Source: a virus
Length of the DNA stretch: 35,240 nucleotides
Direction: 5' to 3' (one strand)
Virus record (IMG/VR): IMGVR_UViG_3300046004_001117
Location: 1-35,240 of that record
Every line of letters begins with the position of its first letter. The stretch's first letter is position 1. The notes below the pieces were generated by a model. The model ran no database searches. It worked only from the letters and a program-made list of their open reading frames with translations, and had not been told where the DNA came from. Made by a program: the position numbers and the translations under genes. Shown here piece by piece: positions 1 through 35,240 of this stretch.

Positions 1-1441
1 AGGCTTTTTGAGAGATTTCGCCGAAAGTCTTGAAAACTTCTTTTTCTTCTTCAGTTAAGAAATCAAGATGCTGAACGCTTCCGCCGTGAACAAGAATAGA
101 TTTCCAAATTTCTTGATTGTCCACTTCTTTGGAAACAAGTAATTCTTTTAAGTGTGGATTTTTATAAGTGAATTTTCCTTTAGCTAAATCCTTCACGAAG
201 TAATTACTGTTCAGTGGCTCAATTGATGGAGACATTTGCCCGAGAATAAACGAGCTTGAAGTGGTGGGAGCTACTGCCAATGTAGTAGAATTTCTACGAG
301 CGTAGCCTTTCAACAATGGAGGCTCGCCAAAAATAGAAGCAAGATCTTGAGAGGCTTTGTCTGCAAGATTGCGAATGCTTTGCCAGATTGACATATTCAA
401 TAGCTTAGCTTCCATAGATTCGAAAGAAACCATTTTAGATTGAAGGTATGTGTGCCATCCAAGAACACCAACACCAAGCGCACGCTGATTGATAGCAAAC
501 TTTCTTGGAGCTTCCATGAATGGCATGGATTCTGTCTTTTCGATAAACTCGCTCATCACTGCGTCCAAGAAGAAAACAAGAGTTTCGACAGCATCAGTTT
601 TGACAATCTCGTCCCATTTTTCAAGATTCAGCGAAGAAAGATTACAAACAAAAGATTCGTCTTCTGAAGTAGAAAGCATAATTTCGTTGCATAGATTACT
701 AGCATTGATCGTCAAACCTTTATCTTTATAAACCTGTGGAGCTTGCTCGTTGGCATTGTCAGAAAAGAATAGGTATGGATAGCCGCTTTCAAATCTCTTT
801 TTAATAACCAAGCCCCAAATTTTGCGAAGATCTTTATCACCATCAATCATTCTCTTCATCCATTCATTGGATACACACACGCCAATCGACATATCTTGAA
901 TCTCATGACCATCTGAGCGAATCTTTAAAAACTCTTCGATATCTGGATGATCGATTGGAAGATAAGCGGCAAAAGAACCTCTTCGAACATTGCCTTGAGA
1001 AACAACATTCATGATCTTATCGTACAATTCCATGAAATGCACAGAGCCAGTAGATTCTCCACCAGAACTAATTGGTGCGCCACGACCGCGAAGCGCTCCA
1101 AAATATGCAGAGGTTCCACCTCCAGCTTTGGTCATCATTGCCACTTCAGACAGCTTATAACCAGCAATCTGCTCTAGCTTGTCTGAAATGTAAGAACCAA
1201 AACAACTAATCGGCAATCCTCTGGACCTTCCAAAGTTACTCCAAATTGGAGAAGATAAAGAGTAAAAACCAGAAGCTAAGTAAGACTCAAACTTCTTAGC
1301 AAACCCATCAATTCCTAAGTATTTTTCAGCAGTATTTGCAATATCCAAAATTCTCTGTTCGGCAGTCTCCCCCGCTAGTAAATAGCCTCTTTCGAGAAAC
1401 GTTCTCGAATCCGCATTAAGCCAATAGTATTTTTCAGTCAT
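1..1441 (-). CDS. nrdA: Ribonucleotide reductase large (alpha) subunit, class I, C-terminus cut off by window edge
   Basis: Reduces ribonucleoside diphosphates to deoxyribonucleotides for phage DNA synthesis, in the cytoplasm with the NrdB radical subunit. I translated the minus strand from ATG at 1441 without a stop to base 1, giving 480 codons. It begins MTEKYYWLNADSRTFLERG. Family landmarks are visible: LPISCFGSYI (first redox cysteine), NVVSQGNVRRGSFAAYLP, ASNLCNEIML (active-site Asn-x-Cys-x-Glu), VCNLSSLNL (second redox cysteine) and APTTSSSFILGQMSPSIEP. The N-terminus is too short for an ATP-cone, so overall activity control through that domain is probably absent. The C-terminal swinging-cysteine tail lies outside the window. 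It starts 2 nt after the nrdB stop, so the pair is one transcript with nrdB first. The family assignment is secure. Confidence 0.97.
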   Translation of the reverse strand, partial: MTEKYYWLNADSRTFLERGYLLAGETAEQRILDIANTAEKYLGIDGFAKKFESYLASGFYSLSSPIWSNFGRSRGLPISCFGSYISDKLEQIAGYKLSEVAMMTKAGGGTSAYFGALRGRGAPISSGGESTGSVHFMELYDKIMNVVSQGNVRRGSFAAYLPIDHPDIEEFLKIRSDGHEIQDMSIGVCVSNEWMKRMIDGDKDLRKIWGLVIKKRFESGYPYLFFSDNANEQAPQVYKDKGLTINASNLCNEIMLSTSEDESFVCNLSSLNLEKWDEIVKTDAVETLVFFLDAVMSEFIEKTESMPFMEAPRKFAINQRALGVGVLGWHTYLQSKMVSFESMEAKLLNMSIWQSIRNLADKASQDLASIFGEPPLLKGYARRNSTTLAVAPTTSSSFILGQMSPSIEPLNSNYFVKDLAKGKFTYKNPHLKELLVSKEVDNQEIWKSILVHGGSVQHLDFLTEEEKEVFKTFGEISQKA

Positions 1442-1443
1442 AA

Positions 1444-2415
1444 TTAAAATAAGTCGTCTTCACCAAATGATTGATTCTTCTTTGAGTACTCGACGGGTCT
1501 AGAACTGAAAAAGTCAGTCATGTTATTGCCCAAAAGTTCCTCGTCGAACCATGTCGTCAATGATAACAATTTTTCATCAATTTCAAAGACTTTTTTAAAA
1601 CCGATTTGAATTAAAGATTCATTGATTCTGTTTTTAATAAACTCTTTAAGGATTGGCGAAGACAGGGACTCCTCATTCAAACCATTTACCATCCAGTCTA
1701 CGATCTTGCTTTCAGCTTCAAAAGCCTGAACTGCTTCGTGAGCAATTCGGGATTCAAGCTCTGAATCAAATAAATCTGGATACTCTTCGCGAATAGTGTT
1801 GATGATTTTAACGCCAACCAAAGCGTGAATATTTTCTTCGTTGCGAGTGTACTTCACTTGCTGATCTGTATCCTTCAAAACGTTTTTGAAGCGAGCAAAA
1901 TGATTGATAATGTAGAATTGGCTGAACAAAGAAACATTTTCGACGAAAAGAGTGAAGAGAATCAAGGCGTACAAATATTGTTTTTTTGAATCCTTATAGA
2001 ATTTATGAGTATACTTTCTCAAGTATTTCACCCTACCCTGAATCCACTCAAGCTTGAGATTTTCTTCAAAGATATCCTCCAAATCAAGAACATTCAAAAG
2101 TCGCTCGTAAGCATTGTTGTGAATGACTTCTATGTTGGCCATAACGTAGCCTAGATCCTGCATAGATGGATGCGGCAGATTGTCGCCCAGCTTTGCCCAG
2201 AAAGTCTTCACAGCCACCTCAATTTGGCCAATAGCCGACAAAGTTCTGACGATCACTTCTCTTTCTTGATCGCTCAAAGACACTTTGAATTGCTGAACGT
2301 CAGACTTAAAGTTGAATTCCTTGTCAGTCCAAAAGCCATTGTGCATTGCCTCTATATACTGCTCAGTCCACGGATATTTATTCGGCTTTCTCGAAACTTG
2401 TTCTTCAAAAATCAT
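1444..2415 (-). CDS. nrdB: Ribonucleotide reductase small (beta) subunit, class I
   Basis: Ferritin-like di-iron subunit that generates the tyrosyl radical used by NrdA. I chose ATG at 2415, giving 323 residues starting MIFEEQVSRKPNKYPW, because this matches the usual family start. The reading frame continues to a TTG at 2463, but those extra 16 residues look non-conserved. Predicted metal ligands, numbered from the ATG, are E66, E96 and H99. Y103 sits seven residues after E96, the spacing of the radical tyrosine in E. coli NrdB. Further helices carry VENVSLFSQF and EENIHALVG, supplying the remaining Glu/Glu/His ligands. There is no convincing Shine-Dalgarno before the ATG. It is the first gene of the leftward nrdB-nrdA pair and is divergent from the operon starting at 2724. 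Confidence 0.96.
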   Translation of the reverse strand: MIFEEQVSRKPNKYPWTEQYIEAMHNGFWTDKEFNFKSDVQQFKVSLSDQEREVIVRTLSAIGQIEVAVKTFWAKLGDNLPHPSMQDLGYVMANIEVIHNNAYERLLNVLDLEDIFEENLKLEWIQGRVKYLRKYTHKFYKDSKKQYLYALILFTLFVENVSLFSQFYIINHFARFKNVLKDTDQQVKYTRNEENIHALVGVKIINTIREEYPDLFDSELESRIAHEAVQAFEAESKIVDWMVNGLNEESLSSPILKEFIKNRINESLIQIGFKKVFEIDEKLLSLTTWFDEELLGNNMTDFFSSRPVEYSKKNQSFGEDDLF

Positions 2416-2507
2416 AGTAGTATGATTTACACTATACTCCACTCCAATTCTAAAAGCCAGCAAAAATTTACTGTAATTTTTTTCTTGACAACCAAAAAAT
2501 AACGCCT

Positions 2508-31684: not shown

Positions 31685-34600
31685 TTAATGAATAAACATT
31701 GGAACGAATGTAGATTGCACGGTTTCTTGCGGCGTAGACATCATATCATAATATACACTCATCATCCAATTTCCCAGCACAAGAGCGGAGTAAGAGTCTT
31801 TTCTCGCTTTGTCAGCGCCTCTTTGCTTTTTGAGATTAAGCGGTAAATCAAAACTTTGAGTTCCTTGCGTCGAACTCGAAACTTGAATTAAAGCGCATTG
31901 AACTTTAATCGTATCAACACTGTCTTTAAGATGCTCAATAAAGTCGATCATTTTTGCTCCTTCATTTTTTTCATCGTCGATACGCAAGAATTTCAAATCA
32001 GCAATGGGAATGTTTGCTGTTTTTTGTCGAGTGAAGTCATCGTTCAGAGCCATGCTTGCAAACCATATGTTTCTATGATCAAACGCTGACTGCAACAACT
32101 CATTCGCATATCTTATCCAAAAAGAACTTGGCTTTCTTAAAAATACTATTCTTTTGGATTCTAAATTATATTGATTTCTAGCATCGCGCAAGGATTTTTC
32201 ATATTCTTGAGTATTGTCTAAATCAGCGTCAAAGCATTCTAATTTGAAATTATTCTTTTTGAATAACTCACTTTCGTTGCAAGAATTTAAAAACTGCACG
32301 CCACCATTATAGTCTCCTACAACGGCAACCACATTAAATGATGTCATCAAGTAGTAGAAATACTCAATATGCTTTTTCAAGTTTGTACCAGATAAAGCAT
32401 ACGAGTGAACCACGATGCCTGTTCTTTGATTTGGCTGTAGTTTGATAACTTGCATGGCAAAATCATCAGAACCATCACTTTCAGACCATGATGGGTCAAA
32501 CGATACAATATATTTTGCTTTAGAATCCCCTATTACTTCGACACACTGCCCTTCTCCGTCTGGAACAGTGCATTGAGCCATCTTACTCACTTTGAAGTAT
32601 CCAGAGCTATCATCTGTGAACACAGAGCCGAATTCTCGCTCGAACTGTGCGACACTCATGGTAGCTTTTGATTGGTCCAGAAGGTTGGCATCGTAAAGTT
32701 GCTCTGGAGCGCAATCATAACTCAAGTGCATAATAACTCTATGAGCTTTATCTTTTTGTTCGGGATTCATAATCAAGTTTTCATACTGCAAATAAAGTTT
32801 GTATAAATACTCGAATCGATAACTCGCAGAAGACAGTCCAATTATTTTGTTGTGAGGCCAAAGATGGCGCTCAGATTCTTCCATTTTCCCTTCTTTTATC
32901 ATCTTAGTTTCTAGATCATAAACTTGTTGCCTTTCAGTTGGATTTTCTACAACAGCCAAGAATGGTAAAATGACTTCATTGAGAATCTTTTCTGGCATCA
33001 ATAAAAGTTCGTCAATAATCATTCTTTGGAAACGGAAACCACGAAGTTTTTCACCATCACCAAGAGGCAGCGCTGTAATTTTACTTCTTCCAATTTCCAT
33101 AACCCATTCATCGTTGCTTTTAGAAACTCTTGTAATGCATTGAGACAATAATGCAGCTTTCGGGCTTCTAGAAATATCTTCGATCTTTCTGAAAATCATC
33201 TTTGACTGTCTGAATGATTTACTAATAATCCCAATGTGGACACCCTGATTGAATATGGCATCTAAAATAGCAAACACAGCTGTTGAGAATGATTTAGAAA
33301 GACCTCGCGAATTATGGTGAACAAAACCGTTTCCAACATAACACTCTTCATTTTCTACAGTAATATCGACAGATTTAACTAAGCAAGAGTCAATCGATTT
33401 AATCTCAGAAAAAATTACATTTTCTTTCTTTATATCTTTTATGATACTCTCTGTTTCGAGAGATAAATTTTTTAAAATATGTAATTCATTTTGAGAAAAG
33501 CTTTTGCCCCAAGATCCTTTTCGGCCTGTTAATTTTTCTCTTGATCCATCTTTCTTTAATATTTCTGAGAAATTTGGAATTAAGTTATTTTGATAGTTTC
33601 TGGTTTTGGATCTATTAATAATTTTTTCTAAATTATGCTTTTTATGAGAAACTACGAAGTCTATTGAGTTTTTAAATTCGGTAAGAGATTTTTCATCATT
33701 TGATATCACTAAATCATAATATGGAACATCTTTATGCTCTCCCGATTTGCGAAGGAAAGATTGAACTCCCATGTTATTTAAAATCATTTTTATCTGACGT
33801 AATAATTCAATAGAAGTATTTTTAATACCCACTTTACTATTCTTATCAAGATAGGAAGCATAACCATCGGCATCAAAAACTCCACCAATCAATGCGCAAA
33901 GTTCATTTCTAGAACATTGAAGTAAACTATCACATATAACTTTATCTTTAGATTTTAAAGACATGTTCCATCCTATTTGTTCTAACCACTTAGATAGTTT
34001 TCGATTGAATATTGAATACTCATAAAAGCTTAAATTTTTAGTTCGTTGACGAGCATAACTTTTAAATTCATTATCGCGAATGAATTTTAAACATACCTCT
34101 TGAACTTCATAACTTTCTGAGCAATAATGCACTCCATCTTGATTTACCCATCCATCGCCCAATACATAACCTAACAAATAAAATAAATAAGGAGATCTTT
34201 TGATTTCGGAGCCATTGGTGATATCTTTATTTCCCCATACCTCAGTTTTTATTTTAATTGGCAAGTGATCTCCAATTGACAGATCTTGTATATTTTTGAA
34301 TTCAAAACCTCCATTGTTATAAGCAAGAACCTTATGTCCAATTTTAGCTTTAAAAGAATCGCCAGATTTTAAATGAATACTTAATCCCCGCTCTTTTGGA
34401 TTAAACTTTTTATCTAAAACTAAATTAATATCATTTCTAGATCTAACAGATTCTCCGACATTAATATCTTTGATCTTTTTAAATCCCTCGCTAGATAAAA
34501 CGTATTCATTTTCCTCCAAACACCAAATACCTAAAAAGTAATCCGTTTCCATCATAGACTTGATTGCTATGTGCTGGAATGGAAATAAACTAACTCCAGT

Positions 34601-34756
34601 GATTAATTCGGTGGCAAAAGATGGATTCTCTCGTAAGAATTTATATAAAAGAACCTTTGCTTTTTTCTCTTCTATAAAACCTTTGCAATCAAGAATTTCT
34701 TGATTTACATTCTTGAATTTTTTATTTAATTTCTGCGATCCTTCTTGCCAACTCAT
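31685..34756 (-). CDS. terL: Terminase large subunit interrupted by an intein
   Basis: ATP-driven DNA packaging motor and headful or site-specific nuclease. The precursor is 1023 residues; after removal of the 404-residue intein (79-482) it is 619, a normal TerL length. The ATPase part has Walker A SRGLSKS (483-489), beginning exactly at the residue after the intein, and Walker B FQRMIIDELL with D582-E583. The nuclease part begins with IVSFDPSWSESDGSDD (D754) and includes VVAVVGDYNGG and a later acidic cluster. The end, KARKDSYSALVLGNWMM, is typical of TerL. Splicing must succeed for packaging, because the intein separates the P-loop from the preceding adenine-binding region. It overlaps the nuclease gene upstream by ATGA. 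Confidence 0.95.
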   Translation of the reverse strand: MSWQEGSQKLNKKFKNVNQEILDCKGFIEEKKAKVLLYKFLRENPSFATELITGVSLFPFQHIAIKSMMETDYFLGIWCLEENEYVLSSEGFKKIKDINVGESVRSRNDINLVLDKKFNPKERGLSIHLKSGDSFKAKIGHKVLAYNNGGFEFKNIQDLSIGDHLPIKIKTEVWGNKDITNGSEIKRSPYLFYLLGYVLGDGWVNQDGVHYCSESYEVQEVCLKFIRDNEFKSYARQRTKNLSFYEYSIFNRKLSKWLEQIGWNMSLKSKDKVICDSLLQCSRNELCALIGGVFDADGYASYLDKNSKVGIKNTSIELLRQIKMILNNMGVQSFLRKSGEHKDVPYYDLVISNDEKSLTEFKNSIDFVVSHKKHNLEKIINRSKTRNYQNNLIPNFSEILKKDGSREKLTGRKGSWGKSFSQNELHILKNLSLETESIIKDIKKENVIFSEIKSIDSCLVKSVDITVENEECYVGNGFVHHNSRGLSKSFSTAVFAILDAIFNQGVHIGIISKSFRQSKMIFRKIEDISRSPKAALLSQCITRVSKSNDEWVMEIGRSKITALPLGDGEKLRGFRFQRMIIDELLLMPEKILNEVILPFLAVVENPTERQQVYDLETKMIKEGKMEESERHLWPHNKIIGLSSASYRFEYLYKLYLQYENLIMNPEQKDKAHRVIMHLSYDCAPEQLYDANLLDQSKATMSVAQFEREFGSVFTDDSSGYFKVSKMAQCTVPDGEGQCVEVIGDSKAKYIVSFDPSWSESDGSDDFAMQVIKLQPNQRTGIVVHSYALSGTNLKKHIEYFYYLMTSFNVVAVVGDYNGGVQFLNSCNESELFKKNNFKLECFDADLDNTQEYEKSLRDARNQYNLESKRIVFLRKPSSFWIRYANELLQSAFDHRNIWFASMALNDDFTRQKTANIPIADLKFLRIDDEKNEGAKMIDFIEHLKDSVDTIKVQCALIQVSSSTQGTQSFDLPLNLKKQRGADKARKDSYSALVLGNWMMSVYYDMMSTPQETVQSTFVPMFIH
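33311..34522 (-). mobile_element. LAGLIDADG homing intein in TerL, 404 residues
   Basis: A self-splicing protein element between W78 and S483. The splice ends are canonical: Cys79 at the N-terminus (CLEENEYVLSSEGFKKIKDI is block A), block B with H141 (SGDSFKAKIGHKVLAYN, though the usual Thr three residues before His is Lys), and a C-terminal VENEECYVGNGFVHHN ending in H481-N482 followed by Ser483. The central homing endonuclease has both dodecapeptides: LLGYVLGDG (194-202, D201) and LIGGVFDADG (289-298, D297). Both acidic residues are kept, so the nuclease may still cut empty terL genes. It is inserted just before the Walker A codons, a conserved target. Confidence 0.95.
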
Positions 34757-35240
34757 TTGGAACCCCTTTCGTAATAATCCATAACCTTGTTATCTAAGAA
34801 ATACTGCATATCAGTATTCCACAACTCTTTCCCACAAATCAATAGTTTTGGAATTAGTATTTGACTATTCCCTCTACTTCCGCTAAAAACAAATTGGCAA
34901 CAGTCTCTATATTCGTGTTGCAGTTCTTTCATCACATGAAAGGCATAATCAAGATTATATCTCTTTGGTGAGTGAGCATTTCTTTCTGACATTCGATATA
35001 AATCGCATTCAGTAACAATAAACAAATAAGATCCAAGATCTCTGCATCTTTGAAGTTCTCTCGCGAATCTTTTATAGCCGACTGTCATAGTAGAACAAAA
35101 ATCAGCGAATGATTTTCTGTCTACATAAGTATAATTATAATCATCGCCGCTTACGGCATAATCTCCGACATCTAATTTAAGACTCTTGGAGTTTTTAAAC
35201 TCTAATGGTTGCTGCTCTCTTGTGTCTACATATATCTGCA
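34753..35240 (-). CDS. XPF/ERCC4-family nuclease, N-terminus outside the window
   Basis: I read this frame through to the right edge without a stop, so the gene extends beyond the window; the ATG at 35088 is internal, not the start. The visible part has the ERCC4 nuclease signature: IYVDTREQQPLEF, then LDVGDYAVSGDD and TYVDRKSFADF (the G-D-Y...D/E-R-K catalytic motif), then KRFARELQRCRDLGSYLFIV, the conserved helix and strand of this fold. Such nucleases cut branched or flapped DNA, so a role in replication, recombination or preparing packaging substrates is likely. The 3' end overlaps the TerL start as ATGA, coupling it to packaging genes. Confidence 0.85.
   Translation of the reverse strand, partial: QIYVDTREQQPLEFKNSKSLKLDVGDYAVSGDDYNYTYVDRKSFADFCSTMTVGYKRFARELQRCRDLGSYLFIVTECDLYRMSERNAHSPKRYNLDYAFHVMKELQHEYRDCCQFVFSGSRGNSQILIPKLLICGKELWNTDMQYFLDNKVMDYYERGSK

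Follow-up and report, generated by a model that had tools for sequence, protein, structure and literature searches.

The large terminase subunit (TerL) gene of an environmental virus is interrupted directly before its Walker A motif by a long in-frame insertion, and the question arises whether this insertion is a working intein capable of homing, and whether an unusual residue in its block B makes the maturation of TerL conditional. The stretch of DNA analyzed, hereafter referred to as the window, covers positions 1 to 35,240 (35,240 nucleotides) of IMG/VR virus record IMGVR_UViG_3300046004_001117. The terL reading frame gave three Pfam matches, all above the cut-offs, i.e., Intein_splicing (E 1e-10), LAGLIDADG_3 (E 5.6e-15), and Terminase_6N (E 1.1e-6), and its intein-free homologue is a terminase large subunit in PHROGs. 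The intein, with 29% GC, is more A+T-rich than the C-extein (37%) and the whole window (37%). The positions of all the features are listed in Table 1. A gene for an ERCC4-type nuclease (34753-35238, minus strand) is located directly upstream of terL, and genes for the large and small subunits of ribonucleotide reductase (2-2463, minus strand) are located at one end of the window.

Table 1. Features of the terL gene and its intein (positions in the window; residue numbers of the intein unless TerL is indicated)
Feature	Position	Strand	Evidence
terL open reading frame, 1023 aa	31685..34756	-	
TerL N-extein, 78 aa, -1 residue Trp78	34523..34756	-	translation; joined to the C-extein in L011 and many empty alleles
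Intein, 404 aa, Cys1 to Asn404	33311..34522	-	splice residues, Pfam, precise empty sites, model and fold match
Block B GDSFKAKIGH, Lys60 (TerL K138) in the usual Thr place, and His63	34334..34363	-	alignments of site-a inteins
Homing endonuclease domain, approximate bounds, residues 105-330	33533..34210	-	LAGLIDADG_3 at 209-277; dN/dS
LAGLIDADG motif 1, LLGYVLGDGW, Asp123 (TerL D201)	34148..34177	-	Asp123 invariant in 28 site-a inteins
LAGLIDADG motif 2, GGVFDADGY, Asp219 (TerL D297)	33860..33886	-	Asp219 invariant in 28 site-a inteins
TerL C-extein, 541 aa, first residue +1 Ser	31685..33310	-	Pfam Terminase_6N; PHROG of intein-free homologue
Walker A segment SRGLSKS, adjoining the intein; +1 Ser codon TCG	33290..33310	-	sequence and codon comparison

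The sequence-only reading of this DNA had claimed a complete set of splice residues (C79, H481, N482, and S483 of TerL) and both LAGLIDADG acids (D201 and D297), and translation of terL located every one of them, together with K138 and H141, at the positions claimed. In the intein numbering used below, these residues correspond to C1, H403, N404, and the +1 Ser, to D123 and D219, and to K60 and H63, respectively. The intein spans exactly 33311-34522, as stated in that reading, and combines Cys1, the penultimate His403, the terminal Asn404, Ser at +1, and the HINT fold of class 1 inteins; in its block B, His63 is present and invariant, while Thr, which is preferred there but is no prerequisite for the class (PMC6805012), is replaced by an invariant Lys60. 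The endonuclease carries two LAGLIDADG motifs with a catalytic acid in each. The observation of the insertion with these residues is confirmed, far beyond chance.

The AlphaFold2 model of the intein, built from 36 related inteins, gave a mean pLDDT of 94.7 and a pTM of 0.93. The best PDB matches of this model by Foldseek, PI-PfuI, TliVMA, and PI-SceI (E 5.5e-19 to about 1e-10), are all inteins with LAGLIDADG endonucleases, and the next matches, endonucleases such as I-DmoI, were to the endonuclease domain only. The predicted overall fold, including both the splicing and endonuclease domains, is similar to that of PI-PfuI, PI-TliVMA, and PI-SceI, but the window intein is different from these with respect to the host gene and the low identity of only 11-17%; the search of PDB chains by sequence with the intein alone gave no meaningful match.

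The insertion point, designated site a, is between W78 and the first residue of Walker A, the Ser at the start of SRGLSKS. This segment is located where the Walker A of terminases is expected (compare SRQLGKT of T4 gp17). Within the TerL family of the window, the motif departs from the usual form and reads SRGxSKS, in which Ser takes the place of the Gly of GK[S/T]; the usual GK was found in the Walker A of more distant TerL genes (L144 and L155). The proposed comparison with intein-free relatives was carried out and confirmed the precise W78/Ser junction. In the relative L011, with exteins 98.7% (N) and 98.0% (C) identical to those of the window, the intein is missing with a gap of exactly 0 nt, and the same 0-nt empty site was identified in L012-L014, L016, and many other TerL genes. 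The claim that the intein sits directly before the TerL Walker A was thus borne out. Every sequence compared herein is a metagenome assembly, and an assembly artefact or an unrelated in-frame insertion might be suspected; these precise empty alleles, the full intein fold with its splice residues, and the occurrence of 28 distinct, intact inteins on contigs of numerous samples, however, leave such an origin a negligible probability.

The distribution of the intein was examined by a profile scan of viral contigs, which yielded 74 loci, and these were pooled with loci found earlier. The 28 distinct inteins located at exactly site a share 35-98% identity with the window intein, and 55 positions are invariant among them, including C1, K60, G62, H63, D123, D219, H403, and N404. 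The same insertion with a degraded endonuclease, the case that would contradict an active element, was searched for among these relatives, and none was detected, both acids being intact in 28/28. Between pairs of site-a inteins with more than 15 synonymous changes, the endonuclease segment showed a dN/dS of 0.044-0.17 (0.066 for the window versus L004), and the site-a endonuclease is accordingly maintained by purifying selection. Cultured phage records contained only distant relatives of both TerL and the intein. The scan of genome contigs gave one relative only, an intein at another site (site c, see below) in L166 (CALFSW010000038.1), whose contig of 29.5 kb was assigned to a Verrucomicrobiales MAG and may be either a prophage or a phage contig binned in error.

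From the intact splice residues and the conserved exteins in an essential gene, we infer autocatalytic splicing of the window precursor. It is highly probable that the insertion is a full-length class 1 homing intein at TerL site a, with splicing of the precursor and with homing of the family through LAGLIDADG cutting. Splicing would start with the N-S acyl shift at Cys1, followed by transfer to the +1 Ser and cyclisation of Asn404, and the joined exteins would make up an intact ATPase. In a coinfected host, the LAGLIDADG domain would cut terL of a related phage at the vacant site, and the break would be repaired on the intein-carrying template, by which the intein would be copied in along with about 100-200 bp of donor flank. 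The intein would persist because its target is essential and conserved.

Mobility was examined by a census of 178 distinct TerL C-exteins, of which 176 could be scored for site a and two were left unscored. Site a was occupied in 31/176 and empty in 145/176, and two neighboring sites, b and c, were occupied in nine and seven, respectively, but these counts are not equal to population frequencies because the sample was collected partly by intein searches. On the extein tree, site-a occupancy corresponds to 18 changes, at least 16 of them forced by well-supported branches, the count making no distinction between gain and loss. The trees reconstructed for inteins and exteins are in conflict: L101 and L109 share 91.5% of C-extein residues but 64.6% of intein residues, and the extein of L101 groups with that of L109, whereas its intein is the sister of the window intein (support 97/95).

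Near-identical pairs of occupied and empty alleles were compared for the location of their differences. Between L111 (occupied) and L279 (empty), 23 of the 24 differences in 1.7 kb fall within 100 bp from the insertion, with all the appearance of a textbook co-conversion tract, and 24 of the 36 differences between L106 (occupied) and L329 (empty) also cluster within 100 bp. Such clustering is the footprint to be expected from double-strand-break repair with co-conversion. The ratio of near to far difference density was 1.9 for occupied-empty pairs versus about 1.0 for the control empty-empty pairs (Mann-Whitney p about 1e-8, the pairs not being independent), and the same test with one closest pair per allele gave p about 1e-4. 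Among the 31 occupied alleles, 25 encode the +1 Ser by TCN, while 94 of the 145 empty alleles use AGY, as counted with relatedness uncorrected, and this split may be read as co-converted donor flank. For the window, TCG (33308-33310) is found versus AGT in the empty L011; a change of all three bases would be awkward by single steps but easy through an imported donor flank.

Recent homing is thus clearly indicated for other members of the site-a family. Both of the homing signs, sporadic distribution and co-conversion, are found in the family, but the footprint around the window copy, with a near/far ratio of 1.4 against L011, is weak apart from the three-base change of the +1 codon. The lack of a strong co-conversion tract around the window copy would be consistent with an intein that still splices but, in the window lineage, has a dead endonuclease or has ceased to home, being inherited vertically with occasional precise loss, and such a history would also fit the tree counts, which leave gains and losses unseparated, and the presence of decayed LAGLIDADG copies at sites b and c. 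We consider this unlikely in view of the two intact acids, the low endonuclease dN/dS between the window and L004, the sister relationship of the window intein to one whose extein belongs elsewhere, and the recent homing in other family members. Returning to a homing intein, we infer the present activity of the window copy from its family; the earlier proposal of a full-length and probably active homing intein is supported by the intact acids, the purifying selection, and the co-conversion in relatives. Since natural co-conversion tracts occur in this widespread family of TerL inteins, homing among environmental phages should be measurable from sequence.

The block B of the window intein reads Lys-x-Gly-His in place of Thr-x-x-His. 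The Thr normally found here is described as spring-loading the N-terminal junction (PMC6333167, PMC6195587), and the sequence-only reading had taken its replacement by K138 as a weakened block B that could make splicing conditional. Under this alternative, Lys would slow the first step, and TerL maturation would await a late-infection signal. The missing Thr and the precedent of conditional splicing in other inteins such as that of mycobacterial DnaB (PMC6195587) speak for such a switch. Lys is, however, found at the Thr place in 28/28 site-a inteins, with identity down to 35%, and recurs in 7/7 site-c inteins; 145 of the 176 related phages are without a site-a intein and need no such switch; and Thr is strongly preferred but not absolute in other inteins, with exceptions in Prp8 inteins and Asn in Sce VMA1 (PMC6805012). 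The switch is accordingly quite improbable, and conditional splicing due to K138 was not supported. As to the further suggestion that lysis timing might depend on splicing, no supporting evidence was found; the function of TerL is DNA packaging.

The most plausible view of the block-B Lys is that of a functional variant inherited from an ancestor: an essential gene depends on the splicing of these inteins, and a residue invariant among them would represent an inherited family state. Decay was rejected as its explanation from the invariance in 28 inteins. Other residues at this position are Leu in the site-b inteins (LDYH or LDHH), Arg in one mini-intein (Arg-x-x-His, read as RADH), and Asp in the class 3 DnaBi1 (PMC6195587). 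No described case of a block-B Lys was found in limited literature searches, and the survey of block-B residues in bacterial genomes via PF14890 gave too few matches for use. Bulky residues at -1 aid the acyl shift in Ssp DnaB (PMC6333167), and one may speculate that Trp(-1) compensates for the missing Thr in the window intein; the site-c inteins, which carry Lys but Gln at -1, argue against this. The invariant Lys questions how essential the canonical Thr is, and the conservation of a non-canonical block-B residue should be checked before decay or regulation is read from it.

Intein insertion in ATPase motifs of phage TerL is already known, and the window intein adds site a. The mycobacteriophage TerL inteins, TerL1-a to -e and TerL6-f, splice, and some of them cut the empty sites of related phages; the TerL1-a and -b sites are within the P-loop of terminase_1-type TerL, and in terminase_6 the only site listed is that at the C-motif (Kelley et al. 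2016, PMC5050341). The site-a inteins are similar to these in being located in the ATPase domain of phage TerL and in clustering at ATP-binding motifs, but are different with respect to the site just before Walker A, the Terminase_6N-type TerL, and the block-B Lys. Insertion within Walker A, as for TerL1-a and TerL1-b, was not found in the window; its insertion precedes the first residue of the motif, and site a is therefore separate from both.

Among the relatives of the window, site b is between the Lys and Ser of Walker A (Lys^Ser) and is occupied in L017, L087, L088, and L091. Site c (FRQ^S), about 35 residues further on, is occupied in L019-L021, L135, L163, and L166, with sites b and c both occupied in L019 and L163. 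The window TerL carries an intein at site a only. The occupied site may differ even in closely related genes, as in L087 (site b only) and L102 (site a only), with C-exteins 96.2% identical, and sample 3300010885 contains alleles of both site a and site b. The LAGLIDADG motifs are decayed in some copies at site b or c (D to G in L020-b and L132-c; D to N in L021-b), but in no site-a copy.

Inteins at sites a and b are present together in L131 (2400-4991), L132 (3001-5979), and L133 (2812-5415), with no more than the six extein residues SRG[A/M/S]SK between them. In L132, site c is occupied as well, and the three inteins of 414, 144, and 400 aa are contained in one 1575-codon gene, the middle one being a 144-aa mini-intein without endonuclease. 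The most unusual feature of the system is that, in these relatives, two inteins occupy sites just six residues apart. In haloarchaeal MCM, neighboring inteins interfere with each other's homing (PMC10643990). The TerL sites are similar to those of MCM in that several close sites in one ATPase gene are singly or doubly occupied and each element homes, but are different in that MCM is an archaeal replicative helicase, and in that L131, L132, and L133 carry inteins at both site a and site b in spite of the six-residue distance. We tentatively suggest, as a possibility with less than even chances, that one family of phage inteins performs the first splicing step with an obligatory Lys-x-Gly-His block B and shares the target with a second intein family six residues away, and that TerL maturation is a natural test of tandem, possibly conditional, splicing. 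If this is true, two inteins would have to be spliced out on either side of a six-residue extein, the core of the Walker A loop, in the doubly occupied genes. L131-L133 offer natural material for testing both tandem splicing and the competition of neighboring homing elements.

Ser-starting inteins were also observed at the equivalents of sites b and c in a more distant TerL group (L144, L145, L154, L155, and L158), and L158 carries a further intein before SKIRGSRF. On the contig of L132, intein-domain matches were found in a second gene, a 1263-aa open frame (G002:C1:65885-67057; L170 and L172).
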